From positions 5,645,001-5,709,000 of the forward strand of contig NZ_CP017174.1 of assembly GCF_006402735.1 (NCBI RefSeq): DNA of 64,000 bases, read 5' to 3'. Position 1 is the stretch's first letter, and every line of letters begins with the position of its first letter. The position numbers were made by a program, and so were the translations under genes. Under the pieces are notes generated by a model. It made no database searches. It saw nothing but the letters and a program-made list of their open reading frames with translations, and had not been told where the DNA came from. Below, one piece after another: positions 37,071-53,984 of the stretch. This DNA is from Myxococcus xanthus (lineage in GTDB: Bacteria > Myxococcota > Myxococcia > Myxococcales > Myxococcaceae).

Positions 37071-39394
37071 TCCCGCGCCCCGGCAGCGGACGGCGCGCCC
37101 CACATCAACGTGCAACGCAGCTCCACGGTGTGGCGCCCGCCCGCGGGGCTCCGCAGCCAGAGCTGGTCCGGCGAGGGCAGCATCTCCGACAGGATGACCT
37201 CTTCCTTCTGCTCCAGCAGGTTGAGGAAGACGCGGAGCAGCGGCGGGCTGCGCACGTCCACCAGCACCGGCTTTCGCTCGTCCTTGAACTTCGCGAAGAC
37301 GCAGTCCGGCATCCCGCGCTCGCTCCACACGCTCACCGCCGCGCGAAGTCTCGCCGAGTCTTCGCGGCCCGCGAGCAGCGCCTCCCGCTCCGCCTGAGAC
37401 AGCCGCCACTGCTCGCGCTGCACCACCACACCGCCCAGGGTCAACCGAGGCGTGTGCTCGCCCAGCGACACGCGCAGCGGACGGATGCGCGGCAGGGAGA
37501 AGGCGGTGTGCACCAGACTGTCCAGCTCACCGTTGTAGAGACACACCTCGGAGCCCAGCCGCTTCGACACCAGCCGCGCCCGCGTTCCATCACTCTCCAC
37601 GAACAGGTCATCCAGCGGCAGCCGCCACGCGGAGGCGCGGGCACTGACACCGCCCAGCTCCACCACGGGCCCCGGGAACTCCGACGGCAGCAGGCCCGTG
37701 CGCCGCGACGCCAACACCGTCACCAGGGGCACCGGCCTGCTCAAGGCCCCGAGCGCCCGCACCATGGCGCTCTCCACCCGGCCGCGCGCCTCGTGGAACT
37801 GGAGCGCCCAGCCCCACACCAGCGCCGTGTCGTGCACGTCGCCCATCACCAGTTCGTACTCGCCTCGGCTCCAGGCCTCCACGTCCCGGGCCCCCACGAG
37901 CAGGTCGATGGACGTAACGAGTGGTAGCGCCTTCGCGTCTCCATCCAGCGACGGCGGCGTCACCGAGCCCAGGTCCGCGCAGCGCGCGGACGCGTCCCCC
38001 ACTGCGCCAGCCAGCGCCTCCGCCACCGAGCCATCCAACGGCACCGGCCGGTCCGAGTACGCGGCCGCCACCTTCCAGAACGGCACCGTGCGCGCGCCCA
38101 CCAGCTCCGCCACGGTGGTGCGAGCGGCCTCCCGGGTCCGCCGTGCCGCCGCTCCCATCCACGCCAGCGCGGGCTCCAGGCGCGTCACCAGCTCACGCGC
38201 CCGCTCACCTCCAGCCTCCAGCCGCAGGTCACCGCCGCACTCCTCCCGGAGCGCCAACCGGTCCTGGTAGAAGTTGTGCGACTCCGACGCGGGCCCTCGC
38301 TCGGATGGCGGCGCCACGCCCCACTGCTCATTCGCGCGCTTCGCGAAGGCGGCCTGGAGCGCCATCTTCCCCGCGGCATCCGCGGCGCCATACCCGGCCA
38401 TCAACGCCAGCAGCGCGCTCAAGCCCTCCACGTGCCGCCGGGCCGCGGAACACGGCAAGCCCGCAACGCGCTCAGCCAGGTCGTCCACGGGGTGATGCGT
38501 GGCGGCGGGTACCTCGAGCTGATGCGTCAGCAGGCCCTTTTCGCAGCCCATCCGCGCCGCCTCGCGCGCCAGGCCCGGGGCCACGCCCAGCGATGATGCG
38601 AGCCCCGCGAGCGTGCGCGTTCCATCCACCGCCTCCACCAACCGGGGCAGCAACGCCTCCGCGCTCTCCGGCGCGGGCAGCGTCTTGCGCGAAGGCACCT
38701 CCGCGAAGGCCTTGCGGCGCAGCACCAGCCACGCGGCGACCTCGGGGTCGAAGGCAATGGCGCGAACCAGCCCCTGCACCAGCCACGACGCCGCGAAGGT
38801 GTTCCGCCCCGTGAGCACCTCCGGCCCGGACCAACGCAGCGTCACACCCGTCGGCGCCTCCGCGTCCGCGCGGCCGTAGTTGATGGGACCGAAGAAGCCC
38901 ATCGTCTCGTTCTTCGCGCACATGCGTTGCAGGTAGCTGGCCACCTGCCGCCGTAACCGCGCGCCGTCTCGCCCCTCCAGCAGGTCTCTCGCCACGGGTG
39001 GGCTGGAGCTGGCCACCGCCTCCAGGAAGCGCGGCTCCTGCCGCAGGGCCCTCAGCGCGTCCTCCACCGCCAGGGACTCCTGCTTCATCGCCGCATGAAA
39101 GGTGGCCTCCGCCTCCTGCGCGGCCCGGGCACGGTCGTTCCATTCAGCGAACAGCTCGGGTGACTCCATTCCCTCGATGTCCACCGGGCGCCCGGCCTTC
39201 AAGGCCGACAGCACCGCGCGCGATGGCCGCTTCACCCGAGGGCCCTGGGCTCTCAGCGCCTCCAACTCCCGCCGCGCCGAAGCCAGCTGGCGCGCGGCCC
39301 GTGCGGCCTCCGGGCACCCCAGCCGCTCCAGCCAATCGAAGGGAAAACCCGTGGTGCGAACCACCAGGTGAGGGAAGAGGGTCCAGCCCTTCAT
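37067..39394 (-). CDS. Stand-alone LanB N-domain protein, copy 1
   Basis: 775 residues. It opens LVVRTTGFPFDWLERLG and shares with copy 2 the block SYLQRMCAKNETMGFFGPINYG (in part; ~175-197). It also shares a closing segment with KDERKPVLVDVRSPPLLRVFL and LSEMLPSPDQLWL. Like copy 2 it lacks a SpaB_C-type elimination domain. First gene of the three-gene overlapping set; no precursor-like ORF fits in the 52 bases separating it from the kinase gene upstream. Two paralogues in one operon suggest two successive or heterodimeric aminoacyl-tRNA-dependent steps (inference). Confidence 0.8.
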   Translation of the reverse strand: MKGWTLFPHLVVRTTGFPFDWLERLGCPEAARAARQLASARRELEALRAQGPRVKRPSRAVLSALKAGRPVDIEGMESPELFAEWNDRARAAQEAEATFHAAMKQESLAVEDALRALRQEPRFLEAVASSSPPVARDLLEGRDGARLRRQVASYLQRMCAKNETMGFFGPINYGRADAEAPTGVTLRWSGPEVLTGRNTFAASWLVQGLVRAIAFDPEVAAWLVLRRKAFAEVPSRKTLPAPESAEALLPRLVEAVDGTRTLAGLASSLGVAPGLAREAARMGCEKGLLTHQLEVPAATHHPVDDLAERVAGLPCSAARRHVEGLSALLALMAGYGAADAAGKMALQAAFAKRANEQWGVAPPSERGPASESHNFYQDRLALREECGGDLRLEAGGERARELVTRLEPALAWMGAAARRTREAARTTVAELVGARTVPFWKVAAAYSDRPVPLDGSVAEALAGAVGDASARCADLGSVTPPSLDGDAKALPLVTSIDLLVGARDVEAWSRGEYELVMGDVHDTALVWGWALQFHEARGRVESAMVRALGALSRPVPLVTVLASRRTGLLPSEFPGPVVELGGVSARASAWRLPLDDLFVESDGTRARLVSKRLGSEVCLYNGELDSLVHTAFSLPRIRPLRVSLGEHTPRLTLGGVVVQREQWRLSQAEREALLAGREDSARLRAAVSVWSERGMPDCVFAKFKDERKPVLVDVRSPPLLRVFLNLLEQKEEVILSEMLPSPDQLWLRSPAGGRHTVELRCTLMWGAPSAAGARE

Positions 39395-39446
39395 GCGTTT
39401 CGCACCCTTCGTCCGGGACGCCGCTCGGCGCCCGGCAGCGCGCCGC

Positions 39447-42400
39447 TCAGTTACGCGGTTGCGACTTCACTTCGATTTGCTGTCCGGGCACGGCCATCAC
39501 CCACAGCTTGCTGACGCCGCTGGGGCAGCGCACCAGGACTTCCAGCTCCCGGCCCGCTTCGATTCGTGCCTTCAACAGCGGCGTTCCACCCGGCAGCAAC
39601 GCGCCACCGACGTGGACTTCACAGCCAGGGGCCGCGCCCGTCACGCTCAGCAGGCCCGTGGTGCCAGGCTCCGGCGAGGCGTCCGCCAGCGTGCGCACGT
39701 CGATGCCCTCGCGCTGCTGCGTGGTTCCGAACCGCCGCAGCTTCCCCTCCATCGCCGTGGAGATGAGCAGCGGGCCGCCCGACGGGTCATGCACCTCCGT
39801 CCCCGGCTCGTGGCGCAGGCCGCCGACATAGACGTGCTCCCCGGGCCCCACGTTGACGAAGTTCGAGCCTCCATCGCGCGTCATCACCACCGCCACCACG
39901 GCCAGCACCAAGGCGCCGCCACCGGTGATGCCCAGAAATTTCCATAGGGGCATCTTGCCCGCCGACGTTTCCGCGGGCGCGGGAGCGCGGCTCGCGGGCG
40001 CAACGGGCCGCGGTGGAGGCGGCTGGGCGGGACGGGCCGTGCTCGCGTGAGTCCCCTGCCCCAGCCCTGGCACCGGCCCGGATGGACGCGGCGGCGCCGG
40101 CATGGCGGGCTGCGGCTGAGAGGCACGCGGCGCGGGAGCGGGCCGAGGCGGCGCTTCCGTCCGAGGCGGCGGCGCGCCCAGGTTGAGCGGCACCACCTCG
40201 GTGCGGTCGTTCGCGTCGTCCTCGGACACGGAGATGCCGGGGAAGGAGTCGTCCGCCGGAGGCGGCGCAGGAGGCCGCACAGCCGCGCTAGCGACGCCCA
40301 CGGACCGTGTCGGGGGCGGCGGGGGAACCGGTGGGCCAGGGCGAGGAATGCCGCCACTGCCGCCCATCCCAGGACGGCTTCCGGCCACGGGCACACTGCC
40401 CCGGCTGGGCGTCCGTCCATCCGTGGGCGCGGCCATCTCCCCACTGCCGATGTTGCCGCTGCCACTGCCCGAAGGCACCGGACGCGGGTGGCTGCCCGTC
40501 CCGCCGACGGCGGACGGCGCGAACTCCACCAGCCGGTCGCCCAGCGTGTCCCGGAAGAACTGGGCCACCGCCGCGGGCGACGAGTTGAGCCGGTGATGCG
40601 CCATCACCGCTTCGATCTCCTCGCGCAACGCGGCGGCGGACGGCGTGCGTCGCGCCGGGTCCTTCACCAGTGCGCGGAGGATGAGGTCGGAGACGTCCTG
40701 GGGGATGTTCGGCTTGAGCTGCGAAGGGACTGGCGCGGGGTCCCGGACGATGGCTTGCAGCGTCGCCGCGTCGTGGTCCCTGCGGAACGGGAGCGTGCCG
40801 GTGAGCAGCTCGAAGAGCACCACGCCCAGCGCGAACACGTCGTTGCGCGCGTCCAGCGTGCGCCCGGACGCCGCCTCCGGGGAGATGTACGAAATCTTCC
40901 CCTTCAGCACGCCCGCCTGCGTGTGCTCCTCGCCCGCCACCTTGGCGATGCCGAAGTCACTCAGCTTGATGGCGCCGTCCAGCGAGATGAGGACGTTGTG
41001 CGGGCTGACGTCCCGGTGCACCACCGGGTGCGGCGTGCCCGCCGGGTCCACGTAGGCGTGGGCGTAGTGAAGGCCCGCGGCCACCTCCGCGACGATGCGC
41101 AGCGCATGCTCCAGCGGGAGCGCCAGGCCCTTGCGCCGCAGCTCGATGACCAGCTTCTTCAGGTCCGGCCCGCGCACGTACTCCATGAGGATGTACGCGA
41201 CGCCGTCGGACACGCCCACGTCGAACGTCTGCACGACGTTCGGGTGCGTCAGCCGCGCGTTGGCGCGGGCCTCCGCGAAGAGCATGTCGACGAACTCGGG
41301 GTTCTCCGCGAACTGTGGGAGAATCTTCTTCATCACCACGAACTTCTCGAAGCCCTTCACGCCCACCTGCTTGGCGAGGAAGACCTCCGCCATGCCGCCC
41401 TGCCCCAGCCGCCGGATGATGTTCAGCTTGGTGCTGCCCAGCGAGTTGGAGATGTCCGTGGACGCGCCCTGGCGGGCCGCCGGGTCGATGTTCGTGGCGC
41501 CGAAGAGATACTGACTGAGGGCGCGAGTCTCCAGCGCCTCCATGTCCTCCAGCGGTCGGTCCGTCAGCTGCACCCGCGCCAGCAGCCCCTGGAGCTGGGG
41601 CATGTGGGGGACGCGCGCGTTGCCGCCGCAGATGGGGCACGGCACTTCCACGCCGGATGCCTGCGCCCGCAGCTTCGCCAGGTAGTCCGCGGCCTGGAGG
41701 CGCTGGTGGCTCACCTGCCCGCAGTTGCGGCAATCACACGGCAGCCACAGCGTGGCCAGCCGCACCGGCAACACCTTGGCCGAGCGCGCCAGCACCGCCA
41801 GCGCGGGCGGCGGCACCCGGCACAACGCCACATGCGCGCCCTGCGCTGCCGTCTCCAGCACCTGCTCCAGCTTCGGCAGGGCCTCCGGCTCCACCTTGCT
41901 GACGTGGCTGAAGTCGAAGCCGACGCGGCCCTCCAGACCCGACGCCAGCCGGCGCACGTTGAGGTCACCCTTCAGCGCGCTGGCCAGGGTGATGTACGTG
42001 ATGTCGTCCTGGATGATCTTCAGGTGCTGCGACAGCTCCGGCTGCTCCGCCGGCATGCTGGCGCGCAGGTAGCGCATGACGACCGGGTCCACCTGGCCGA
42101 ACTGCTGCCGCCGCGCGTAGTCGAAGAACTCCCCCGGCAGGTCCGCGAACTCCAGCGCCCCCTGACACACGGGGCAGGAATGGTCGGGCGCACGTTCCTC
42201 GGAGATGACCTGCGCCTCATCCAGCAGGTTCACCAGCCGCAGCCGGTCCTCGTTGCAGGCGCGGCAGGAGTAGGGCGCCAACACGGAGAGGACGCGGGCG
42301 ACGCCGGCGAAGCCCTCCACCATGTTGAGCTGGTCCACGATGACGGGCGGCGCGTGGACCACGTAGAGGCCCAGCGCCCCCTGCGGCAACTTGGCGGCGA

Positions 42401-42608
42401 ACTCAATCCACCGCCGCACGCCGAAGGAGCTGATGCGCTCCACCTGCCCCAGGTCCACCACCAGCAGCCCGTTCATCTCCGGGCTGGCGGACGTCAGTGG
42501 GAATGTTTCGTCGATGACGCCGGAAATCCGGACGTGGGTAATCGTCCCCACGCGGAGCCGGCTGATGATGGCGTTGGAAACCTGGCTATCCACCGGCCCT
42601 GACCTCAT
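39447..42608 (-). CDS. STAS / zinc-ribbon / Ser-Thr kinase fusion, membrane-anchored
   Basis: 1053 residues. Residues ~10-110 form a STAS-like domain (LLVVDLGQVERISSFGVRRW, with the candidate phospho-Ser). A CxxC zinc-ribbon pair follows (CRAC, CPVC). A second STAS-like region at ~210-300 (VGFDFSHVSKVEPEAL) is followed by another CxxC set (CDCRNC, CPIC). A full kinase domain at ~400-680 has GQGGMAEVFLAK, HRDVSPHNVLI, LSDFGIAKV and SPEAAS. Then come a Pro-rich linker, one transmembrane helix (~885-905) and a ~150-residue exterior domain. The four-base overlap with the HATPase gene upstream and the SpoIIE phosphatase in the same run suggest partner switching feeding a kinase. Confidence 0.85.
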   Translation of the reverse strand: MRSGPVDSQVSNAIISRLRVGTITHVRISGVIDETFPLTSASPEMNGLLVVDLGQVERISSFGVRRWIEFAAKLPQGALGLYVVHAPPVIVDQLNMVEGFAGVARVLSVLAPYSCRACNEDRLRLVNLLDEAQVISEERAPDHSCPVCQGALEFADLPGEFFDYARRQQFGQVDPVVMRYLRASMPAEQPELSQHLKIIQDDITYITLASALKGDLNVRRLASGLEGRVGFDFSHVSKVEPEALPKLEQVLETAAQGAHVALCRVPPPALAVLARSAKVLPVRLATLWLPCDCRNCGQVSHQRLQAADYLAKLRAQASGVEVPCPICGGNARVPHMPQLQGLLARVQLTDRPLEDMEALETRALSQYLFGATNIDPAARQGASTDISNSLGSTKLNIIRRLGQGGMAEVFLAKQVGVKGFEKFVVMKKILPQFAENPEFVDMLFAEARANARLTHPNVVQTFDVGVSDGVAYILMEYVRGPDLKKLVIELRRKGLALPLEHALRIVAEVAAGLHYAHAYVDPAGTPHPVVHRDVSPHNVLISLDGAIKLSDFGIAKVAGEEHTQAGVLKGKISYISPEAASGRTLDARNDVFALGVVLFELLTGTLPFRRDHDAATLQAIVRDPAPVPSQLKPNIPQDVSDLILRALVKDPARRTPSAAALREEIEAVMAHHRLNSSPAAVAQFFRDTLGDRLVEFAPSAVGGTGSHPRPVPSGSGSGNIGSGEMAAPTDGRTPSRGSVPVAGSRPGMGGSGGIPRPGPPVPPPPPTRSVGVASAAVRPPAPPPADDSFPGISVSEDDANDRTEVVPLNLGAPPPRTEAPPRPAPAPRASQPQPAMPAPPRPSGPVPGLGQGTHASTARPAQPPPPRPVAPASRAPAPAETSAGKMPLWKFLGITGGGALVLAVVAVVMTRDGGSNFVNVGPGEHVYVGGLRHEPGTEVHDPSGGPLLISTAMEGKLRRFGTTQQREGIDVRTLADASPEPGTTGLLSVTGAAPGCEVHVGGALLPGGTPLLKARIEAGRELEVLVRCPSGVSKLWVMAVPGQQIEVKSQPRN

Positions 42609-43447
42609 TGAAGACAGAACAGCAGCGACTTGGGTTGTGTGGCGCGGCGGCGGGCCTCCCCCAGGTCCACCACGCACAGGACTCGTGACTCACGGCCAGC
42701 GGCCACACGGACGGCCACCACATCGCTGTGCTCCAGGATGCGCCGCAGTCCCAGCCCCGCCCCTCCTCCGGACGCATCCACCTGGACGCGCCCTCCCCAC
42801 CCTCCCAGCGCCCGGGCGAAGGGCCCCGGACGCAGACCACCGAAGCGGTCCACGACTTCCAACCACATGCGGCCCTCTTCCACCACGTAGGACAGCTCGC
42901 ACGCGTCCTCCGGCGCCACCTCTCGGACCTCGGAGCGGCGGTGCGCGTACCGGTGCTGGCCCTGCGCGTCCACCGGCGCGTCCCACATCGCGTTGGCCGC
43001 CAGCTCATGCACCACGTCGCCCACCAGCGCCGCCGCCGTGCGCGAACCCCGCGCCTGCGTGACGGCCCGCGCGGCGGCCTCACCGGTGGCGTTGATGTCC
43101 GCCACCGACTGGAGCCGGTGCCGCGATGCCCCCGCGGGCAGCAGCGGCGCGCCGCGAAGCAGGTCCCCCAACAAGCGCGCCTCCCACGTGGAGGGACGTC
43201 CGTCGGAGGCCCGTGTCGCCAGCAGCAGCGAGGGCGGCTCGCCGCGCAGCGCCTCCGCGTGCGCGGGCGTCAGCTTCCCGTCGAAGAGCACCAGACGCCG
43301 GGGCCCGGAAGGCGACCCTGGCCCCTGGCACAGCGCCATGCCGCCCTGTGCGAGGACGGGAGCCGCCTGCTCCACCAGCGCCGGAGAAAGCGACTCGTCT
43401 GCAATCAACAGGAGGCCGCCGGCCTCCAGGTGGGGGGCGGTACTCAA
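42605..43447 (-). CDS. HATPase anti-sigma-kinase-like protein
   Basis: 280 residues. The C-terminal half is a GHKL ATPase: N-box DVVHELAANAMWDAP (~140-155), then a G-box GGGAGLGLRRILEHSD (~230-245). No phospho-acceptor His domain is present, so an RsbW/SpoIIAB-type serine kinase is more likely than a histidine kinase. The N-terminal ~110 residues may be a receiver-like fold (LLLIADESL, LVLFDGKL). It overlaps the STAS-kinase fusion by four bases; the STAS domain there is its natural substrate (inference). Three bases separate it from the TonB receptor gene upstream. Confidence 0.78.
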   Translation of the reverse strand: MSTAPHLEAGGLLLIADESLSPALVEQAAPVLAQGGMALCQGPGSPSGPRRLVLFDGKLTPAHAEALRGEPPSLLLATRASDGRPSTWEARLLGDLLRGAPLLPAGASRHRLQSVADINATGEAAARAVTQARGSRTAAALVGDVVHELAANAMWDAPVDAQGQHRYAHRRSEVREVAPEDACELSYVVEEGRMWLEVVDRFGGLRPGPFARALGGWGGRVQVDASGGGAGLGLRRILEHSDVVAVRVAAGRESRVLCVVDLGEARRRATQPKSLLFCLQ

Positions 43448-43450
43448 GGG

Positions 43451-46045
43451 CTAGTATCGAACCTTGACTTCGCTGAAGAACGACTGGGGCGGTGCTGGGA
43501 AACCGTGGGATTCCTCGTACTGCGCATTGAAGAGGTTGGAGCCGAGGAACGACACGGAGATGCCGTCGTAGACGTTGAAGCCCACGCGCGCGCTGGCCGT
43601 GACGTAGCTGGGCAGCTGCACACGGGTGGTGGGCAGGCCCGTCGTCTCGTCCACCTCGAAGCCCGGGTCATAACGTGAGCCCACCAGCAGCGCGTACAGC
43701 TCCACGAAGGCGACCTTGCCGATGTTGGTACGGCCACGCGCGTAGATGCGATGGGCCGGCGCGTAGTCCAGCGGAGACTGCGGACCGTCGTCGTACGGCA
43801 GCGCCTTGGCGTTGAGGAACTGGTACGCGATGTCGAAGGACGAGTTGATGGACGGAATCTGCGCGGCCGCTTCCAGTTCGAAGCCCGCCACCCGCGCGTC
43901 GCCCAGGTTCTGGAACTGCGACACGGAGCCGAAGACGAGCTGCTGGTTGATGAAGTTCTTCGCCAGATTGTAGAAGCCCGTACCCGTCAGGCGCACCCTC
44001 CGATCGAAGGGCCAGAAATCCACCGATGCCTCGATGGTGTCCAGCGTCTCCGCGCGCAGATTGGAGTTGCCCACCAGTGTGGCCGCGTACATCTGCTGGT
44101 TGATGGCCAGCTCAGCCAACGTGGGCGCGCGGAAGGCGCGGCCGTAGTTGGTGCGCAGGGTCAGCAACTCCGGCACCGCGTGGAACACGACGCTGGCGCG
44201 CGGCGAAACCTGGTCCGTGCGGTTCTGCCAGACGCGCTCCGGAATCTGGTAGCGGTCGTAACGGGCACCCGCGCCGAACACCAGCCGGTTGAAGAGGCGG
44301 TACTCCGCGTCCACGAAGCCGCCCAGGATGGTCTGCCGCGTGTCGTCCATGCTCAGCTCGGGCAGGACGTTGGGCACGTTGACGGCGTCCGCCTTCAAGT
44401 CACCACCGAAGGTGACGTTGAGGTCGCCCATCGTCCACAGCGCGCGCGCCTCGCCGCCCAGCCGGCGCCGCTTGCCCAGCGCGCGGGTGGGGTCGCCGCC
44501 GAAGGCGTTCTCCATCAGCACGTCGCGGCGCTTGAAGAAGCCGTACGCCTGGCCGAAGAGGCGCAGGTTGTCGGTGACTTGCTGGTCCACCTGCGCGGAC
44601 GCGTTGAAGTTCTGCACCGACTCGGAGTCGTTCGGCGTGTAGTGGCAGCGGCCGCAGTTGCCCACGGTGGAGATGTGCGTGCCACCCGGGCGGCCAATCT
44701 CCGCGTCCGTGAAGTCCGCGTCCAGCGCCAGGGGCCCGATGCGCACCTTGCCGTTGACCTGGTGCACCAGCGAGTCCTGGTTGGTGTCCACCCGGCCCAC
44801 GCGCGGGTCGTTGAAGAGCTGCGGGCCGTCCGAGCCGAAGCCGTAGTAGCCCAGCAGCGCCTCCACCGGACCGCCACGGCCCGCCACGGTGCCATGCAAA
44901 CGCCACGTCTGGTCCTGGCCCGCCAGCACCCGCGCCTCGGCGCCCACGTTCTTGCCCTTCTCGATGAGGTCCGACGGCTGGCGCTGGATGACGTTGATGA
45001 CGCCGCTGAAGGCGTTGGAGCCGTACAGCGAGGACCCCGGGCCGCGGATGACCTCCACCTGCTTGAGGTTGGTGAGCGGCGTGGTCTCGTCCGCGTAGAA
45101 CTGACCCGTCCACGGGTCCGTCAGCGGACGGCCGTCCTGGAGCAGCAGCAGTCGGTTGGACAGGTAGTTGGAGCCCAGGCCGCGCGCGCTCACCGCCGCC
45201 TTGCGCATGGAGCCCCGGCGGCACTCCATGCCGGGGAAGTACTGGATGGCCTCGCACAGCGTGAACTGGCCGGTGCCTTCCAGCTCGTCGGCCGGAATCC
45301 AGGACACAGTGAGGGGCACGTCGGAGATGCGCTGGTTGCGCTTGCCGGCGGTGGTCACCACCGCCTCGCTCAGCACGCGGTTGACGGACTCCTCCAGCGC
45401 GTCGGCGCCGTCCAGCGGGTCCACACCCAGGCCCGCGAGCCCGGACTGCGGCGGCAAGGGGCGATCCAGGGTCGGCTCCGCGAAGGGCGCGCTGATGGGA
45501 ATGTTCGACGAGGGCGCGGGCTGGTGCGCGGGCAGCGTCGCAGTGGCCGGCGGGAGATTCGTCGGCGCGTCCGGCGGGTTGAAGTCCGCGCCGACCGGCG
45601 GCAGCGCCCGCGGGGAGGCAGGCTCGGCCGTCAGGGGCGTGGCCGGCGTCAGGGGCGCGGCGGTGGGCGGCGTGGGCACGGGTGCCGGCGGGCTCGCGGG
45701 CGACGCATCATCCGTGGAAGGCCCGCCACCCAGGACGGGAATCTCCGGCTCGGCCGTCGGGTCGTCCGCGTCCTCGACGGGCGGCGGCTTCACGGGCTTC
45801 TTCGACTTCTTCGCCGTCTTCGCGGCGGGACGCGCGGAGGCCGCGGGCTTCACCACCCGCTTCCGGCGCTTCACCTTGGCGGGAGCCTCCGCCTCCGCGG
45901 CCTCCTGCGCTGCCGCGCTCGAAGGGACGACGAGGGACAGCACGCACAGCATGATGGAAAGAGGCAGGCCGGCGCGCAGGGCGCGGCGCCCGGCAACCGC
46001 CTTCGCCGCGCCCTGCCGCGGCTCACCGAACACAGTCGAGTGCAT
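43451..46045 (-). CDS. TonB-dependent outer-membrane receptor with CxxCH motif
   Basis: 864 residues from ATG 46045. It has a signal peptide (to ~AAAQ, residue 47), then a ~170-residue Lys/Pro/Ala-rich linker. The plug domain runs from about residue 225 (TVSWIPADELEG, LQDGRPLTDPW, VEVIRGPGSSLYGSNAFSGVINV). A 22-strand type barrel ends SEVKVRY. A Cys-pair CGRCH near residue 460, in an extracellular-loop position, fits the c-type haem motif CxxCH, which is unusual in a receptor. The long basic linker is also unusual. Ligand unknown. It lies in one run with a PhnD-like binding protein and signalling genes. Confidence 0.88.
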   Translation of the reverse strand: MHSTVFGEPRQGAAKAVAGRRALRAGLPLSIMLCVLSLVVPSSAAAQEAAEAEAPAKVKRRKRVVKPAASARPAAKTAKKSKKPVKPPPVEDADDPTAEPEIPVLGGGPSTDDASPASPPAPVPTPPTAAPLTPATPLTAEPASPRALPPVGADFNPPDAPTNLPPATATLPAHQPAPSSNIPISAPFAEPTLDRPLPPQSGLAGLGVDPLDGADALEESVNRVLSEAVVTTAGKRNQRISDVPLTVSWIPADELEGTGQFTLCEAIQYFPGMECRRGSMRKAAVSARGLGSNYLSNRLLLLQDGRPLTDPWTGQFYADETTPLTNLKQVEVIRGPGSSLYGSNAFSGVINVIQRQPSDLIEKGKNVGAEARVLAGQDQTWRLHGTVAGRGGPVEALLGYYGFGSDGPQLFNDPRVGRVDTNQDSLVHQVNGKVRIGPLALDADFTDAEIGRPGGTHISTVGNCGRCHYTPNDSESVQNFNASAQVDQQVTDNLRLFGQAYGFFKRRDVLMENAFGGDPTRALGKRRRLGGEARALWTMGDLNVTFGGDLKADAVNVPNVLPELSMDDTRQTILGGFVDAEYRLFNRLVFGAGARYDRYQIPERVWQNRTDQVSPRASVVFHAVPELLTLRTNYGRAFRAPTLAELAINQQMYAATLVGNSNLRAETLDTIEASVDFWPFDRRVRLTGTGFYNLAKNFINQQLVFGSVSQFQNLGDARVAGFELEAAAQIPSINSSFDIAYQFLNAKALPYDDGPQSPLDYAPAHRIYARGRTNIGKVAFVELYALLVGSRYDPGFEVDETTGLPTTRVQLPSYVTASARVGFNVYDGISVSFLGSNLFNAQYEESHGFPAPPQSFFSEVKVRY

Positions 46046-46241
46046 CGTTCTCACATCCAAGGGTGGAGCATGGACACCCGAGGTCCTGTACGTACGATCC
46101 GGAGACGGGCTCGGCGCCAGCGCTTGCGTCCGGGGGAACGCGGTTTCACGACTGGACACCAACGCCATCATTTTCAAGCTACCCCAGAGACCACGCCGGG
46201 CCAAGTCGCTGGCTCTCATTCTCTAGAAACTCGGGAAAGCA

Positions 46242-47162
46242 TCAGTCGTCCGGCTGTTCCGCGGAGACGGAGAGGTCTCCGACGAAGGACGGAAGCGCGG
46301 GGCCCAGTTCCTCCGAGCGCACCAGCACCTCGGCCTCCACGTGAAGGTCGGCCCCTTCCGCCAGCACGGGCTGACGCCGCGGCGGGCCGCGCGTGACGAG
46401 CTTGCTGAACTCGTCGAAGTCCTTGTCCTGGAGCCGCGCGAAGGCATCGAAGGGCGCCACCGCGCCCACCTTCCCCAGCGCGCCGGTGAGCGCGGCCTCG
46501 TGGTTGCGCAGGTCCACCAGCACGGCCCCCGGCACCCGGCCACTGCGGAAGAGCACGCGCACATCCTTGCCCTTGGGCACGTGCGCCAGAGGGACGAGCG
46601 CCGCCTCCGCGCCCTTGGCCTCCAGCATCTTCAGCGCGGACTCCACGTTCGGCACGGGGGCCAGCTTGAAGTGCTTCTGGGCGTCCAGGTCGCCACCGAG
46701 CACGACGTGGGTGACGAACTTCGGGTCCGCCGGGCCCGCGCCCTTCACGTGCGCCAGGCGCTTGCCGGCGAGGTCCTTCACCACGCCGCGCTGCAACGCG
46801 ACAATGGCCCAGCGCTGCTGCGTGTCACCCGCGCGTGAGGCCCAGGCCACCGGCTTCGCCTTCGCGCCCAGTTGCACCGCGGCCCACGCATCCACCACCG
46901 CGAAGTCCACCATCCCGCCCGCCACCGCGCGGGAGAAGTCCTCGTAGCGGCCGAAGCTCTTGGCGGCCACGGGCGTGTCCAGGGTCTCCGACAGCCGGGC
47001 GGCCAGGGCCTCCGCGTACTCGAAGCGCTCCTGGCCATCCGCGAGCGTGGTGGCGAGGAACACCCCCAACGTGGCCTTCTTCGGCGCCGCGAGCGCGGTG
47101 CTGGCCGTCAGGGTGCAGGCCAGCACGAGGCCAGCCAGGAGGAAGCGAGGTGACGTCTTCAT
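46242..47162 (-). CDS. PhnD-like periplasmic binding protein
   Basis: 306 residues with an N-terminal signal peptide ending STALAA. The mature part follows the phosphate/phosphonate binding-protein pattern: ATLGVFLATTLADGQERFEYAEAL at its start, FGRYEDFSRAVAGGMVDFAVVD, LAGKRLAHVKG, and GAEAALVPL. No ABC permease or ATPase is nearby, so it may act as a sensor or as partner of the TonB receptor rather than in classic uptake (inference). Its start overlaps the TPR gene stop in ATGA. 196 bases separate it from the receptor gene downstream. Confidence 0.75.
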   Translation of the reverse strand: MKTSPRFLLAGLVLACTLTASTALAAPKKATLGVFLATTLADGQERFEYAEALAARLSETLDTPVAAKSFGRYEDFSRAVAGGMVDFAVVDAWAAVQLGAKAKPVAWASRAGDTQQRWAIVALQRGVVKDLAGKRLAHVKGAGPADPKFVTHVVLGGDLDAQKHFKLAPVPNVESALKMLEAKGAEAALVPLAHVPKGKDVRVLFRSGRVPGAVLVDLRNHEAALTGALGKVGAVAPFDAFARLQDKDFDEFSKLVTRGPPRRQPVLAEGADLHVEAEVLVRSEELGPALPSFVGDLSVSAEQPDD

Positions 47163-49675
47163 GGGGTCTCCTCCACGGTGGCGTCCGCGGGCGCGCCCGA
47201 GGCGGGCTCGGCCAGGCCGTGCAGACTCTGCAGGCGTTCCTTCCACTCACGCACCTGCGCCATGCGCGGGCCGCTGCCGCCGGCCAGGTAGCGGCGCCAG
47301 GCCTCCACGGCCTCTCCCGCGTCCTTGCGGCGCTCCTGCGCGTCGATGCCCAGGTTGAGCGCGGCGACCGGCACGCTCGACTCCAGCCGACGCCACGTCT
47401 CCACGGCGTCCGTCGTGCGGCCCTTGCGCCAGTCGACGCAGGCCAGGTTGTGCTGCACCTGCGTGTCGTCCGGGCTGCCGGCGAGCGCGGCCTTGAAGGC
47501 CTTCTCCGCCACCTTCATGTTGCCGGCGTTGTACGCCTGGGACGCCTCGCGCCGGTGGAGCGCGCCCGTCATCGCCGTCAGCCACTTGGGCTGTCCGGGC
47601 ATCGGCTTCTTCGCCGCCGCGGTCAGCTGCTTGCGCGCGGCGGGCACCTGCCCCTTCTTGTAGAGCACGAAGGCGGTGGCCAGCGCGCGAGTGTTGGGCC
47701 AGGCCCAGGGCTGCGTGGACGCGAGGGCCTTGGCGATGGCCGCGCTCGCCTCCGCGTGGCGCCCGGACTCCGCGCGCGCCAGGCCGCGGACGAACTGGGC
47801 CAGCCGCACCAGCTCCTTGCGGTTGCCCGTGCCCAGCTTGTCCACCAGGTCCAAATCCCGCTCGGCGGCGTCGGCGTCTCCGGCCTCCAGGCGAACCAGC
47901 GCCCGGCGCACCAGCACGCGCGGAAGGTTGGCGCCCGCCACCTGCGCCGCGGCGCGCGACGGGCCCACCGCGGTGAGGCGCTGCACCGCCGCGTCCACCT
48001 GCCCCAGCTCCACCTCGGCCAGCGCGGCGCCGACGGAGGCCTCCGCCTGTTCGTCGGGCTCCTCCGTCTGGGTGGCCGCGCGGTTGAAGGCCTCCAGCGC
48101 CGCCTGGGCGTCGTTCGTGGCCAGCCGCGCGTACCCCAGCAGCAGGCTGTCACGCCACGCGGCGCCGGGCAGCATCACGCCCTGCTCCATCACCTTGCGC
48201 GCGTCCGCGTAGGCGCGCGTCTCCAGCAGCGCGGCGCCCAGCCGGCGGGCCATGGGCGCGCCCCGGTCCAAGTCATACGCGCGGCGCAAGTCCCGGACGG
48301 CGTCCTCCAGCCGTCCCGTGCCCGCCCTGTCCCGCGCCCGGTGCGCCAGGGCCCGGGCCAGCCACTGCTTCGCCCCGGCGTGTTCCGGCTCCACCTGCAG
48401 CGCGTTGGCGTAGTCCTCGATGGCCTGGTCCCACTGGCCGGTGGCGAAGTGGTCCGCGCCCAGCAGCACGTAGCCCAGGGCCTGACGCGGCGCCATCTCC
48501 ACCACGCGCCGGTGCACCTCCACCGCGCGCTGGAAGCGGCCCGCGCGCCGGTTCACCGAGCCCAGGTTGGCCCACAGCTCCAGGCTGTTGGCGCCCGAGC
48601 GCACCGCGCCCTCCAGGAACTGGATGGCCTCCTCGTGCCGGCCCTGTGCCTGGAGCGCCTTGCCCACCGCCATCTGCCCCAGCACCAGGCCCGGCTGGAG
48701 TTGGAGCACCTTGCGGTACTCCGCCTCCGCGGCGGCCGCGTTCTTCTGGGCGAAGCGCACGTCACCCAGCAGCAGGTGCGCGGCGGGCGAGCTGCCCAGC
48801 TTCACCACCGCCTGGGCCTGCGCGTCCGCCTTCGCGACGTCCCCCGCGCCCAGGTACAGGCGGGCCAGCTTCTCGCGCGCATCGCCCGCCTGCGGGAAGC
48901 GCGTGGTGACGCCCTCCAGCAGCGTGCGCGCCTCCACCACCCGGCCCTCCAGCTCCAGCACCTGCGCCAGGCCCAGTTGCACCGACGGCGACTCTGGCCG
49001 GCCCGCCTGCGCCTGCTGGAAGGACGCGCGCGCCGCCGCGGCATCCCCGCGCAGCACGTGGGCGCGGCCCAGCAGCTCGTGAATCTGGAAGTCGTTGGGC
49101 GCCAGGGCCTGCGGACGCAGCGCCAGGTAGCGCTTCAGCCGCGTGGCCGCCGCGTCTCCCTGCTGGACGTAGAGGTAGTAGCTGGCCAGGTAGTAATGGA
49201 CGATGAGGTGTTCGGCCTTGTCGGCCGTGGCCACCTGCTCCATCAGCGGCACGGCCTCCGGGAAGCGGCGCAGCTTGAAGTACGCCACGCTCACCGGATA
49301 GGCCAGGGGCAGCTCGGAGGGGTTCGCCGTCAGCACCGGCTGCACCCGGTCCACGGTGCGCTGCCAGTCGTTGAGCGCGTTGGCGCTGGCGCCCAGGCCG
49401 GCGGCGGCGGCCACGGAGCCAGGCTCGGCGGTCAGCGCTTGTTCGAAGAGGGCCAGGGCCTTGCGGTACTTCTCCTCGGCCTCCTTCTTGTCACCCGAGG
49501 CGCTGGCGGCGCTGGCGGCCACCTGCGCCGCCTCGCCGTCCCGCACCAGCCGCTGGGATTCGGACATGGGCGGCGGGCGGTACTGCGCCAGCGCGGGCGG
49601 GCCGCACAGGGTGGTCAGCAGCGCGAGGGCCGGCGTGAGACGGCGCGACCGAGGGTGTCGTGGGGAGCGTCGCAT
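47159..49675 (-). CDS. Exported TPR-repeat protein
   Basis: 838 residues. Signal peptide to about residue 31 (LTTLCGPPALAQ), then nearly continuous TPR units through the C-terminus. Clear examples are AEEKYRKALALFEQALTAEPG (in part), AEAEYRKVLQLQPGL, and MKVAEKAFKAALAGSPDD. It is probably a periplasmic scaffold linking the binding protein, receptor or phosphatase encoded beside it. Start at 49675, 23 bases after the phosphatase gene. No enzyme motif. Confidence 0.8.
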   Translation of the reverse strand: MRRSPRHPRSRRLTPALALLTTLCGPPALAQYRPPPMSESQRLVRDGEAAQVAASAASASGDKKEAEEKYRKALALFEQALTAEPGSVAAAAGLGASANALNDWQRTVDRVQPVLTANPSELPLAYPVSVAYFKLRRFPEAVPLMEQVATADKAEHLIVHYYLASYYLYVQQGDAAATRLKRYLALRPQALAPNDFQIHELLGRAHVLRGDAAAARASFQQAQAGRPESPSVQLGLAQVLELEGRVVEARTLLEGVTTRFPQAGDAREKLARLYLGAGDVAKADAQAQAVVKLGSSPAAHLLLGDVRFAQKNAAAAEAEYRKVLQLQPGLVLGQMAVGKALQAQGRHEEAIQFLEGAVRSGANSLELWANLGSVNRRAGRFQRAVEVHRRVVEMAPRQALGYVLLGADHFATGQWDQAIEDYANALQVEPEHAGAKQWLARALAHRARDRAGTGRLEDAVRDLRRAYDLDRGAPMARRLGAALLETRAYADARKVMEQGVMLPGAAWRDSLLLGYARLATNDAQAALEAFNRAATQTEEPDEQAEASVGAALAEVELGQVDAAVQRLTAVGPSRAAAQVAGANLPRVLVRRALVRLEAGDADAAERDLDLVDKLGTGNRKELVRLAQFVRGLARAESGRHAEASAAIAKALASTQPWAWPNTRALATAFVLYKKGQVPAARKQLTAAAKKPMPGQPKWLTAMTGALHRREASQAYNAGNMKVAEKAFKAALAGSPDDTQVQHNLACVDWRKGRTTDAVETWRRLESSVPVAALNLGIDAQERRKDAGEAVEAWRRYLAGGSGPRMAQVREWKERLQSLHGLAEPASGAPADATVEETP

Positions 49676-49698
49676 GCGTGTGGAGTCCCGGAAGGAAG

Positions 49699-51474
49699 TC
49701 AGGCGGCGGGGCTGAACTCGGCCACGACGACGGTGATGTCGTCCCGCTGCGGCTGGCCGGCGCTGAAGGCTCGAGCGTCCGCCAGCACCGCGTCACGCAG
49801 CGCCTCCGCGGACAGGTGGGCGTGCGCTTGGACCGCGGCGGCCAGACGCTGGGTGCCGTAGAGCTTGCCCGCGTTGTCGCGCGCCTCGGTGAGGCCGTCC
49901 GTGTACCAGACCACCACGTCCCCTGGCCGCAGCTGGGCCTGGCGCGAGGTGAACTGCGATTCGACGGAGGCGCCCAGCAGCGGGCCGCGCGCGGGCAGCG
50001 ATGCAATCTGACCGCTGCGCTTGTTGAACACCAGCGGGCTGGGGTGCGCGCCCGCCGCGTAGTCGATGTAGCCGTTGGACACGTCGATGACGGCCAGCGC
50101 GCTGGACATCTGGTGCTCACCGCGGCCCACGTTGGCCAGCGTCACGTTGAGGGCGGTGATGAGCATCTGCGCGTTGACCTGCGACGGCTCGCGCAGCGTC
50201 ATCGCCGAGGCGAAGCCACTGGTGGCGCTGGTGGCCACCAGCGACGTGGACAGGCCGTGGCCCGTCACGTCGCCAATGCCAATGACGATGCGCCGGTCAT
50301 CCAGGGCGGCCCGGAACCACCAGTCGCCGCCGCACGCATCCGCGGTGACGACCAGGCCGGCGATGCGCAGCGGCCCCACCTGCACGCCCTCGCGCCCCGG
50401 CAGCAGCGTCTCCTGCACGGTGCGCGCGAGCGACACCTCGCGCTCCAGCTGCGCCTTGGCGCGCACGTCCTCCAGCAGCACCTTGATGCGCTCGGCCATG
50501 TGGTTGAACACCACGCCCAGCGTCACCACCTCGCGGCCCGCGCCCTGCGCCGTTCCCGCCCGTGCGCTCAGGTTGCCGGCGGCAAGCTGCATCACCTTGC
50601 CGGTCAGCATGCCCAGCGGCCGGGTGATGCGCCGGCTCTGGTAGGCCACCAGCACGCCCGCCAGCACCACGAAGCCCAGCCCCAGCCCCAGCATGCGCAG
50701 CGTGGTGGCGCGCACCGTGGCGCGCTTGTCCTGCTCCAGCGACGCCAGCTGCTGCTGCAGCCCGCCCAGCGAGTAGCTGATGACGACCAGCCCCTTGCCG
50801 CTGCTGGAGCCGTAGTCGATGGGCTCCTGGATTTCGGAGATGGGCTGCCCCCGGTAGAAGGCGCTCACCAGCCGGCGCTCGGCGCGGCGGACCGGCGCGG
50901 CGTCCTCCTTGTCCTCGCTGGCGCCTTCGCTGTCCGCCATCCGGACCCCGTCCGGGTCGAAAATCTGCACCCGGAGGATGTTGGGGTTCGTCTTGACGAT
51001 GGAGCCCGCCACCTCTTCGAGGAAGGCGTAGTTGTTGTCGCGCAGGTTTGTGGCGGAGGTGAGCGCGATGGTCTGCCCCACCGTCTGGCCCAGCTCGCGC
51101 GCCTGCTCCTGGATGCGATCCTTGGAGACGAGCGCCGTCTCCTCGAACTGGGACTTGGTGGAGGCCACCGACAGCGCCGCCAGCAAGCCCACGATGAGCA
51201 CCACCAGGACGCCGGTGGTGAGCAGGAGAATCTGGTCCAGCCGCAGGCCCTTGATCTGGGCCACGTTGGGCAGCTCGCCCGCCTCCAGTGGCGCGATGAG
51301 GGTGCGGGTGCCACCCTCCGCCAGCCCCAACGGGCCCGTCAGGCGCGTGGCGGTGGACTCCCGCGCGCCGGTGACTTCCTGGGTGCCTGTCCGCTCGGAC
51401 GGCGGGAGCGCGGCGTCATCCGGGGACTCGTCGGACGCGGGCGCGGACTTCAGTCGCGTATTCGTACTGGACAA
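49699..51474 (-). CDS. Membrane PP2C/SpoIIE phosphatase with HAMP domain
   Basis: 591 residues. A cytoplasmic N-tail is followed by TM1 (~80-102), a periplasmic sensor-like region (~105-255), TM2 (~262-282) and a HAMP domain (~285-340). The SpoIIE-type PP2C domain runs from ~350 to 590. Metal-binding Asp motifs appear as DACGGDWW, GDVTGHG, YTDGLTEA and DDITVVV. It is expected to dephosphorylate a STAS protein on an external cue, opposing the HATPase kinase encoded five genes on. First gene of the run; 258 bases separate it from the divergent protease gene. Confidence 0.88.
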   Translation of the reverse strand: MSSTNTRLKSAPASDESPDDAALPPSERTGTQEVTGARESTATRLTGPLGLAEGGTRTLIAPLEAGELPNVAQIKGLRLDQILLLTTGVLVVLIVGLLAALSVASTKSQFEETALVSKDRIQEQARELGQTVGQTIALTSATNLRDNNYAFLEEVAGSIVKTNPNILRVQIFDPDGVRMADSEGASEDKEDAAPVRRAERRLVSAFYRGQPISEIQEPIDYGSSSGKGLVVISYSLGGLQQQLASLEQDKRATVRATTLRMLGLGLGFVVLAGVLVAYQSRRITRPLGMLTGKVMQLAAGNLSARAGTAQGAGREVVTLGVVFNHMAERIKVLLEDVRAKAQLEREVSLARTVQETLLPGREGVQVGPLRIAGLVVTADACGGDWWFRAALDDRRIVIGIGDVTGHGLSTSLVATSATSGFASAMTLREPSQVNAQMLITALNVTLANVGRGEHQMSSALAVIDVSNGYIDYAAGAHPSPLVFNKRSGQIASLPARGPLLGASVESQFTSRQAQLRPGDVVVWYTDGLTEARDNAGKLYGTQRLAAAVQAHAHLSAEALRDAVLADARAFSAGQPQRDDITVVVAEFSPAA

Positions 51475-51732
51475 GGGCGGGCCGGGGTGGGGACGCGCTG
51501 GGGGAGCGCGGGGGAAACAGGGGTGTTTCGAGACTCTATCTCACTTCTCGTGCTTCGCGAGGCCCTGTCCCCACATCCACGCCGCGCCGGGGAAGACGCC
51601 ACGGCCGGCATGTCACTGAAGCCATGTCATGCCAATGTCATGGCCCTATTGGAACCCCGCGTCATTCATCCGGGGTACGCCGCGCCCCTCCCCCTTCACC
51701 GGGCGCGATGCGGGTGTGCCCGTTACAGTCGG

Positions 51733-52848
51733 ATGTCCATGCGGCCCCACTTCCACGTGGCCGGCTTTCCCGTCCGGCTCCATCCGCTCTTCTTCCTCGT
51801 CGCGTTGATGACGGGCTGGACGCTCATCTCCGAGCCCGCTCGGCTCGCGTTGTGGGTGGGCATCGTCTTCGTGTCCGTGCTCCTCCATGAACTGGGGCAT
51901 GCGCTGGCCTTCCGCCGCTACGGCTGTCCCGCTCGAATCGAGCTGCACGGCATGGGCGGCACCACCCAGACCCACGACGCCGCGCACCTCACTCACCCGC
52001 AGTCGGCCTTCGTGAGCTTCGCCGGGCCGGGCATCGGCTTCCTGGCGGGCGGGCTCGTCTGGGGCCTGTCGCAGCTCGTTCCGCTGGGTGAGCCGGGCGG
52101 ACTGGCGGACCAGGGCGTGCGGCAGTTCCTGTGGGTCAACATCGGCTGGGGGCTCTTCAACCTGCTGCCCATGCAGCCACTGGACGGTGGCCATCTGCTG
52201 GCGGACCTGGTGCGCGCCCGCAGCGGCTACCGCCACGAACGGGTGGTGCTTGGCATTGGCATCGCCACGGCGGTGGTGGTGCTGGGACTGGCCATCTGGT
52301 CGAAGCAGGTCTGGCTGGGAATGTTCGCGATGATGCTGGGAATGATGAACGTCGAGCAGCTCCGCCGGACGCCGAAAGTGCGCCCCGCCGAGCCGCGGTT
52401 CGCCGCCCCCCGCGTCGTCCGCAAGCCCCGGACTGCACCGGCGGGCGCCATCTCCATCGAGGGGCTGATGGACGAGCTGCGGGGAACGCCTCTCCCCCCG
52501 GACGCGGCTGCCGCGGATGATGACCTGGAGGGCCCTCACGACCCGGCCCTGGTGGGCGAGATGCTCCTGGACAGCGGGCTGCCAGAGCTGGCCGTGGGCT
52601 CGCTCCAATCCGCCTTCACGCAGGCGCCCCTGCCGCGCACCGGCCATGCCCTGGTGCTGGCGCTGCTGCACACCGGGCGGCTCCAGGAGCTGGCCTCGCT
52701 GCTGGACAGCTCGCACGCCCGGCAACTGTCCGAGGACACCCTGGCCCTCATTTCCGAGCACGCCGGGACGGCCAGCGAGGCCACACTCACCGAGCGAGTT
52801 ACCGCGCTGCGGCACGGGCGGACTCCTGCCACGGATGAGCCCCGCTGA
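51733..52848 (+). CDS. Site-2-protease-like M50 metalloprotease with C-terminal extension
   Basis: 371 residues with about six membrane helices in the first 225. Zinc ligands are H52-E-L-G-H56 and the distal Asp151 in MQPLDGGHLL. It would cut within or near the membrane. The C-terminal ~140 residues are soluble and helical (EGLMDELRGTPLPPD, then helices resembling repeats), not part of the minimal family. Start taken at ATG 51733; a second ATG two codons later is equally possible, and neither has a strong ribosome site. A substrate such as an anti-sigma factor is possible but not visible here. Confidence 0.82.
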   Translation: MSMRPHFHVAGFPVRLHPLFFLVALMTGWTLISEPARLALWVGIVFVSVLLHELGHALAFRRYGCPARIELHGMGGTTQTHDAAHLTHPQSAFVSFAGPGIGFLAGGLVWGLSQLVPLGEPGGLADQGVRQFLWVNIGWGLFNLLPMQPLDGGHLLADLVRARSGYRHERVVLGIGIATAVVVLGLAIWSKQVWLGMFAMMLGMMNVEQLRRTPKVRPAEPRFAAPRVVRKPRTAPAGAISIEGLMDELRGTPLPPDAAAADDDLEGPHDPALVGEMLLDSGLPELAVGSLQSAFTQAPLPRTGHALVLALLHTGRLQELASLLDSSHARQLSEDTLALISEHAGTASEATLTERVTALRHGRTPATDEPR

Positions 52849-52973
52849 TTGCCGCGCCGCGCCAGAAGGTGCTCTCCGCCTGACGTCCCGGCAGGCGGCC
52901 CATCAACTGCCTTGAGCGGGAGGCACCCATCCGGGTTATAGGGGCGTCCCCTCCAGCCAGAGGAAGGTCGCGC

Positions 52974-53984
52974 GTGTCTCGTCCCCGACTCATCAAAGAA
53001 TCCTCAGAAGCGTCCGCGCCGCTCGAGCGGGAGCTCCTGGTCCGCATCCATGACCTCATGGTGAAGACGCGCGTCCTCGAGGAGCGCCTCATCCAGATGT
53101 ACAAGCAGGGCCATGGGTACTTCTGGATTGGCGGCCCCGGCGAGGAGGCGTTCAACGTCTCCCTGGGCCTGCTCATGAAGAAGGGCCAGGGCCCCGACTT
53201 CGACTATCTGCATGCGCACTACCGGCAGTCCGGCACCCTGCTCGCGCTGGGTGAGGAGCCCATCGGCTCCCTGCGGCAGATGAAGAACACGGCCACGGAC
53301 CCGTATTCGGGCGGCCGCAACTTCGCGGGCCACTACTCCGCCCGGAAGTACAACGTGGCGCCGGTGTCCTCACCCATCGAGGTCCAGTACGCCATCGCCC
53401 CGGGCACGGCCATGGTGCAGAAGCGCCACGGCGGTGACGGCATCACCATCGTCACCGGTGGCGACGCTGGCACGGCCGAGGGCGATTTCGCCTCGTGCCT
53501 GGTGTGGAGCAGCCGCCCCGCCAACCCGCTGCCCATCCTCATCATCGTCACCAACAACAAGTGGGGCATCTCCACGGCGGCGGAGGGCCAGCACGGCGAG
53601 CAGCGCATCAGCGACCGCGGCAAGGCCTTTGGCATCCGCAGCAAGACCATCAACGGCAACGACGCCGTGGAGGCCTACACCGAGCTGCGCGAGGCCATGG
53701 CCTACGTGCGCACGGAGCGCAAGCCCTTCCTCCTGGAGGCCAACGTGTCGCGCCTCTACGGCCATTCGTCCGCCTCCGGTGCCAACTACGTGGGCAACGA
53801 GGTCGACTGCCTCAAGGACTTCGAGGCGAAGCTGGAGAAGGACGGCGTCCTGACGCGAGAGCAGATGGACGCCCTGCGCAACAACTACACCGAGGAGATG
53901 GCCGCCGCCGCCCGACTGGTGCGCGACGAGCCACAGCCCGACCCGGAATCCATCTGGAAGCACATCTACGCGGAGGACAAGTAA
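52974..53984 (+). CDS. pdhA: Pyruvate (2-oxoacid) dehydrogenase E1 component, alpha subunit
   Basis: 336 residues. It binds thiamine diphosphate with the beta subunit and decarboxylates pyruvate or a related 2-oxoacid. The ThDP motif runs from GGDAGTAEGDF (~161) to NNKWGIS (~195). The family-typical RLYGHSSASGANY and phosphorylation-loop-like region are present. Start GTG 52974 with GAGGAAGG upstream. Three bases separate it from the beta subunit gene. No E2 or E3 gene is in the window. Branched-chain or acetoin substrate specificity cannot be ruled out. Confidence 0.9.
   Translation: MSRPRLIKESSEASAPLERELLVRIHDLMVKTRVLEERLIQMYKQGHGYFWIGGPGEEAFNVSLGLLMKKGQGPDFDYLHAHYRQSGTLLALGEEPIGSLRQMKNTATDPYSGGRNFAGHYSARKYNVAPVSSPIEVQYAIAPGTAMVQKRHGGDGITIVTGGDAGTAEGDFASCLVWSSRPANPLPILIIVTNNKWGISTAAEGQHGEQRISDRGKAFGIRSKTINGNDAVEAYTELREAMAYVRTERKPFLLEANVSRLYGHSSASGANYVGNEVDCLKDFEAKLEKDGVLTREQMDALRNNYTEEMAAAARLVRDEPQPDPESIWKHIYAEDK

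Follow-up and report, generated by a model that had tools for sequence, protein, structure and literature searches.

Partner switches are known mainly as controllers of sigma factors, and signalling from the outer membrane is known mainly through FecA-FecR-FecI. A run of six tightly packed minus-strand genes in Myxococcus xanthus raises the question whether a partner switch can take its input from the cell envelope and deliver its output to a protein kinase. The genes, here called A to F, lie at 39447-51474 of the window, by which we mean the whole stretch of 64,000 nucleotides that was analysed (5,645,001-5,709,000 of the complete 9.32-Mb genome). They encode a membrane SpoIIE-type phosphatase (A), an exported TPR protein (B), a PhnD-like binding protein (C), a TonB-dependent receptor (D), a GHKL-type kinase, or HATPase (E), and a STAS protein fused to a Hanks-type Ser/Thr kinase (F). 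All six had been named in a first-pass annotation of the sequence, and Pfam matches and predicted folds put each of them at the place and on the strand given there. Taking the evidence presented below together, we estimate a probability of about 0.55 that A-F form an envelope-sensing partner switch acting on the Hanks kinase.

The switch proteins

Protein A consists of a transmembrane segment (residues 82-100), a periplasmic Cache-like domain of about 158 residues, a second transmembrane segment (259-277), a HAMP domain and the SpoIIE domain. The GGD, GDVTGHG, TDG and DD motifs were invariant in 19 sequences, and the metal-binding and catalytic residues of a PP2C phosphatase are intact, D384, D402, D526, D578 and D579 being invariant. 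The best NCBIfam match of A was SiaA. It is the sole full-length SpoIIE match in its genome, and MXAN_4562, which is A in M. xanthus, is catalogued as the only SpoIIE of this species in PMC2887360. The match of the periplasmic sensor to a Cache family is weak in the window (Table 1); the homologous sensor in L106, a locus described below, matched sCache_3_2 at 2.8e-10, above the Pfam cut-off, and the sensor of A is probably a single Cache domain.

In protein E, the N-box residues E148 and N152 as well as D200 and GGAGLG were invariant in 25 sequences, and the N-box, G1 and G2 motifs were all kept. Pfam gave no match with the E protein of the window and detected HATPase_c in 3 of the 25 family members. 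Because the sequence search of E against PDB was unconvincing, the predicted structure was used (predicted local distance difference test score, pLDDT, 86.8). The model matched the folds of SpoIIAB (Z 11.9), UsfX (11.0), RsbW (10.9), SiaB (10.3), LvrC (9.9) and Rv1364c (9.1), and the next group, histidine kinases, followed at Z values of 6.6 or less. According to its predicted fold, E is thus a GHKL serine kinase, which groups with SpoIIAB, RsbW and SiaB and not with the histidine kinases. The HATPase of M. xanthus strain AM003 is 98% identical to that of the window. A tRNA-Cys reported by ARAGORN at 43297-43384 lies inside the coding sequence of E and was taken as probably false.

In protein F a four-cysteine ribbon follows each of the two STAS domains; after these come the kinase domain, a transmembrane segment (891-909) and a periplasmic tail, which is PEGA-like in the homolog at locus L052. 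Cysteines C115, C118, C145 and C148 are invariant. The Pfam match to STAS_2 was below threshold (22.2 bits vs 29.2 for the second STAS domain), and the structure of the first domain, STAS1, matched TM1442 (Z 11.1), SpoIIAA and RsbV (both 10.6). In this way the weak Pfam calls for E and for the STAS domains are rescued by predicted structure. The predicted phosphoacceptor of STAS1 is Ser61, which in a profile alignment falls on the serine of DSAG in TM1442 and of SSAG in 4hyl and is equivalent to Ser58 of SpoIIAA. It was invariant in 20 sequences and in another set of 18, which included distant systems of family f17 (see below), and F can be regarded, on this alignment, as a STAS antagonist with a predicted phosphoacceptor serine. 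The second STAS domain of the window protein has Pro-Glu in the corresponding region and no such serine. The kinase motifs K427, HRD and DFG are intact in every operon copy of F, and no part of the system is better conserved than the kinase domain, which is 89-99% identical across the Myxococcaceae operons. As judged from motifs and models, A, E and F provide the three components that define a partner switch, and the cycle connecting them is a predicted one.

The envelope proteins

Protein C belongs to the PF12974 superfamily and falls short of the PhnD equivalog, scoring 17.8 bits with TIGR03431 vs a cut-off of 261.1. Its best PDB match, MCA1014 (7t1m), was too weak to point to a ligand (E 0.023). 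In D, a Pro/Ala-rich extension precedes the plug and the barrel, and Pfam detected no STN domain either in the whole protein or in the N-terminal 222 residues, which were scanned separately. D is MXAN_4559 of M. xanthus (PMC4158809, PMC3222651), a protein found in vesicles (PMC4158809), and the run A-F should be MXAN_4562-MXAN_4557, the numbers between 4562 and 4559 and the remaining ones being deduced.

The barrel of D contains a CGRCH motif (Table 1) in the context VGNCGRCH. CxxCH is the c-type haem motif; it is kept by the diverged copies of G109 and G067, and the part of the f17 receptors that was read is free of cysteine.

Within the six-gene run Pfam detected no permease, ABC ATPase, FecR or STN domain or sigma gene, and the annotators' remark that the run is free of a permease is thereby borne out. 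The only sigma-like match in the window, a weak one to sigma70 region 2 (E 3.3e-5), is at 13472-13624 on the plus strand, about 26 kb from the run.

Table 1. Positions of the genes, domains and motifs discussed in the text (window coordinates unless a locus is named)
Feature	Position	Strand	Basis
Promoter-like block ahead of A, CTCGCG-N17-TAGAGT	51533..51561	-	Conserved vs nine relatives; putative function
Gene A, membrane SpoIIE/PP2C phosphatase, 591 aa, TTG start	49699..51474	-	Pfam SpoIIE 4.8e-40, HAMP 1.7e-7
Periplasmic sensor of A, residues 100-262	50689..51177	-	Weak dCache_1 (0.0096)
Gene B, exported TPR protein, 838 aa	47159..49675	-	TPR families to 6e-41
Gene C, PhnD-like (PF12974) periplasmic binding protein	46242..47162	-	Phosphonate-bd 9.6e-10
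Promoter-like block in C-D gap, TTGGCC-N17-TAGCTT	46176..46204	-	Conserved vs nine relatives
Gene D, TonB-dependent receptor, 864 aa	43451..46045	-	TonB barrel 2.7e-40, Plug 3.2e-18
CGRCH (CxxCH) motif in D barrel	44642..44656	-	19/19 orthologs and three diverged copies
Gene E, SpoIIAB/RsbW-type GHKL kinase, 280 aa, N-terminal extension of ~100 aa	42605..43447	-	Motifs, fold; 3 bp after D
Gene F, STAS-Zn ribbon-STAS-Zn ribbon-Hanks kinase-transmembrane-periplasmic, 1053 aa	39447..42608	-	Pkinase 1e-40; STAS fold
Ser61 codon of STAS1, predicted phosphoacceptor	42426..42428	-	Invariance, profile alignment
Hanks kinase domain of F, residues 397-661	40626..41420	-	Pkinase; motifs
Rearranged six-part kinase-free cluster, other Myxococcota family (f17)	L106:4402-12934; L108		

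Conservation and co-inheritance

The annotators had proposed conservation of the six-gene order as a check, and order and orientation A-B-C-D-E-F were found to be identical in 18 of 18 Myxococcaceae loci representing seven genera. In the relatives A and B are 5-24 bp apart or overlap by 4 bp; B and C overlap by 4 bp in all 18 loci, D and E are separated by 3-16 bp in 17 of them (38 bp in L042), and E and F mostly overlap. Three starts were corrected in the window: F begins with the ATG at 42608, which overlaps the stop of E by 4 bp, and not at 42677; C begins with the ATG at 47162 and has the same 4-bp overlap with the stop of B; and D, from conservation, with the ATG at 46045, leaving a C-D gap of 196 bp (46046-46241). 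The upstream M50 peptidase gene and the downstream LanB-like gene are missing in several of the seven genera, so that synteny ends with A on one side and with F on the other. Conserved order combined with non-conserved flanks rules out a chance neighbourhood.

Of 195 Myxococcota genomes, 61 gave strong SpoIIE matches (E <1e-100), and strong PhnD matches (E <1e-45) fell in precisely these 61. Strong HATPase matches were obtained in 60 of these 61 and in G103 (the match in G067 was weak), and F was missing in four of the 61, which fits the ends of draft contigs. The set is jointly absent from G114 and G130, and from G091-093 with the exception of an orphan F. As the 195 genomes are related, the Fisher value for the co-occurrence is no fair probability; more is to be learned from the few losses and from the recurrence in a distant family. 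In G109, A, E and F are adjacent, and A-E-F, B-C and D are on three contigs. The supposition that the six genes are a functional unit is strongly supported by the conserved order, the co-inheritance and the recurrence in another arrangement.

Rearranged, soluble and orphan versions

In two genomes of family f17 belonging to two genera (G016 and G015), genes for a TPR protein, a PhnD-like protein, a HATPase, a STAS protein, a SpoIIE phosphatase and a TonB receptor are tightly packed in this other order. The STAS protein of this cluster is a lone domain with a zinc ribbon and no kinase, the SpoIIE protein has two transmembrane segments and a Cache domain, and no permease or ATPase genes were seen in the cluster. 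Six other loci (L052, L055, L057, L058, L059 and L062) have a soluble SpoIIE, with no transmembrane segment, together with related switch parts, and no PhnD-like or related TonB gene was present in the stretches read there, some of which were short. A PhnD ortholog was not found in the G103 genome. Taking into account that the trio B, C and D is present in the kinase-free f17 cluster and was not seen with soluble SpoIIE in the stretches read, the receptor trio appears to belong with the sensor phosphatase. The receptor set tracks the membrane-sensor SpoIIE and the kinase tracks the STAS domain, which supports input by an envelope receptor, with the kinase as a family-specific output. This dissociation is the best available evidence for the envelope parts as input, and the envelope input suggested by the first-pass annotation gains support from it; being comparative, it is not proof.

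Proteins D, C and B could also be taken for an import system, the expression or activity of which is controlled by the switch and kinase, with the receptor as the target and not the sensor and the inner-membrane permease encoded elsewhere. TonB receptors and PhnD-like proteins are classically parts of transport systems, D has no STN signalling domain, and D-E-F is one tight unit. We nevertheless find this explanation unlikely: the six genes, the order of which is unbroken in 18 loci, include neither a permease nor an ATPase, and the trio, not found in the stretches read around a kinase fusion with soluble SpoIIE and present in the kinase-free f17 cluster, follows the sensor and not the output.

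It is similarly doubtful that F is a receptor kinase acting autonomously, with a STAS part that does nothing but dock E, and that the true output is a separate E-bound protein, a sigma factor or other, encoded elsewhere. Orphan F paralogs with no A, E or receptor genes persist in G091-093, and second copies of this kind occur in Archangium-type genomes; the STAS of f17 has no kinase, the counterpart of E in the classical switches has a third partner, and F possesses its own transmembrane segment and periplasmic tail. On the other side, every operon copy retains the fusion, the kinase domain is better conserved than any other part, and no sigma gene is linked. The idea that the STAS output may feed a kinase agrees with the conserved fusion and the intact kinase motifs, and is weakened by the kinase-free STAS of f17. 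The orphan loci are L098-L100, in which the kinase HRD reads HCD, and L101-L103. Loss of Ser61 from orphan F was considered as a test of the switch, and proved uninformative, the orphans having kept Ser61.

Two further loci may be mentioned. In G103 (L052:7811-9682) the HATPase and STAS-kinase genes adjoin that of a soluble SpoIIE, the N-terminal half of which looks receiver-like by eye. In G189 (L107:1966-8915) a SpoIIE with two transmembrane segments is encoded near a histidine kinase and a receiver protein, which may be this sensor in a different wiring; a PhnD-like exported protein near this SpoIIE (E 0.0013) was too weak to count.

Transcription and genome setting

The promoter-like block in the C-D gap is followed, in the alignment with nine relatives, by a conserved leader that extends to the ATG of D at 46045. 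No terminator was found on the minus strand of the gap. Among intrinsic terminators that might split the run, the only minus-strand site (43411-43427) is inside the HATPase gene, and their total was no more than in shuffled sequences. No riboswitch or other Rfam element was matched in 36000-53000. A conserved promoter-like block with no terminator suggests two linked transcripts, and A-F is probably transcribed in this way, D-E-F being also transcribable on its own. A promoter and a terminator dividing the run into unrelated units had been named as an observation that would speak against the annotation; a promoter-like block was indeed seen, but the terminator was not found and the halves are co-inherited, which speaks against unrelated units. 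That A-B-C and D-E-F are merely co-inherited neighbours, transcribed independently and not joined in one signalling chain, is very improbable: the block with its leader and the three contigs of G109 would fit such an arrangement, but A is the sole full-length SpoIIE match in the genome and E and F are its natural partners, the A-E-F adjacency in G109 splits the set differently, no terminator is present, and the set is lost together in G114, G130 and, orphan F apart, G091-093.

Next to the run, 33220-35520 and 37067-39394 encode two related proteins that by eye resemble LanB-type lantibiotic dehydratases and have no NCBIfam match. An antiSMASH-type annotation assigns MXAN_4545-4561 of M. xanthus, the matching region, to a lantipeptide cluster (PMC4902038) and in doing so takes up part of the operon. 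Elsewhere in the same genome (G000:C1:7671604-7672293; L087, L095) an open reading frame contains HATPase_c_2 and then STAS_2, a fused kinase-antagonist.

Proposed signalling route

If A-F is an envelope-sensing partner switch, a ligand would cross the outer membrane through the TonB receptor D into the periplasm and be bound there by the PhnD-like protein C, with the TPR protein B perhaps serving as a scaffold. The Cache domain of A would read the C-ligand complex or the free ligand, and HAMP would relay the signal to the SpoIIE domain, which would strip phosphate from Ser61 of STAS1 in F. E would phosphorylate Ser61 with ATP and would bind the unphosphorylated STAS domain. The phosphorylation state of STAS and the binding of E could then set the activity or the partners of the Hanks kinase on the same polypeptide. 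Sequence and prediction establish the parts, the catalytic and phosphoacceptor residues, the folds, the gene order and the co-inheritance; the path of the ligand, the phosphorylation cycle and the role of the kinase as output are deduced from these, and regulation could have either sign.

Several observations weigh against this route. The Cache domain could bind a ligand directly, without C or D. The promoter-like block parts A-B-C from D-E-F. The persistence of orphan F copies without the switch means that the kinase is not strictly dependent on it, and the kinase-free f17 systems mean that STAS may have other outputs. Finally, the co-inheritance comes mostly from one clade with few independent losses. 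The more general picture, a trans-envelope route in which a TonB receptor and a binding protein act on a Cache-SpoIIE phosphatase and this on a switch at the STAS domain of a Hanks kinase that spans the membrane, the input module being coupled to a different output in a distant Myxococcota family, is put forward tentatively, at somewhat less than even odds.

Parts of the system have been catalogued before. PMC2887360, a phosphatome paper, places MXAN_4562 in a SpoIIE group that is the same phosphatase ortholog group as A, mentions that Sorangium has fusions of STAS proteins with eukaryotic-like kinases, and counts 96 eukaryotic-like kinases in M. xanthus; its passages that were read describe neither the set of six genes nor the HATPase, the genes of the receptor part or a mechanism. 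In the open-licence literature we found no description of MXAN_4557-4562 as a system, or of partner switching joined to a TonB receptor. If the proposal is true, a chain from receptor to phosphatase to kinase would span two membranes, an input would have been found for one of the 96 kinases, and a partner switch would be placed between two phosphorylation systems. The existence of two natural arrangements, with and without the kinase, makes the question of input and output directly testable in a myxobacterium that is grown in the laboratory.

Comparison with known systems

In FecA-FecR-FecI an outer-membrane receptor is linked to an intracellular response. The run shares this combination of an outer-membrane receptor with an intracellular response, and differs in having no STN domain, FecR or ECF (extracytoplasmic function) sigma gene. 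ABC uptake systems have a permease and an ATPase along with the binding protein, and Pfam detected neither among the six genes.

RsbU-RsbW-RsbV and SpoIIE-SpoIIAB-SpoIIAA (PMC11418112) have the same three catalytic and substrate roles as A, E and F, and RsbU of Chlamydia is thought to read a periplasmic metabolite (PMC11619594). These systems release a sigma factor, whereas here no sigma gene is linked, the STAS domain shares a polypeptide with a Hanks kinase, and genes for partners in the outer membrane and the periplasm stand between those of the switch. A linked sigma output belongs to the classical sub-type only, and SiaABCD illustrates that a partner switch can do without it.

SiaABCD of Pseudomonas aeruginosa (PMC7647112) is a four-gene system, its operon encodes neither a TonB receptor nor a binding protein nor a TPR protein, its output is a separate diguanylate cyclase, and the target residue is Thr68 of SiaC. 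In the M. xanthus run no co-encoded diguanylate cyclase was detected by Pfam, the Hanks kinase domain being the only candidate output domain fused or linked. The two systems are alike in combining a HAMP-SpoIIE phosphatase, a kinase of the SpoIIAB fold and a phosphorylatable antagonist that acts, or in M. xanthus would act, on a signalling enzyme and not on a sigma factor.

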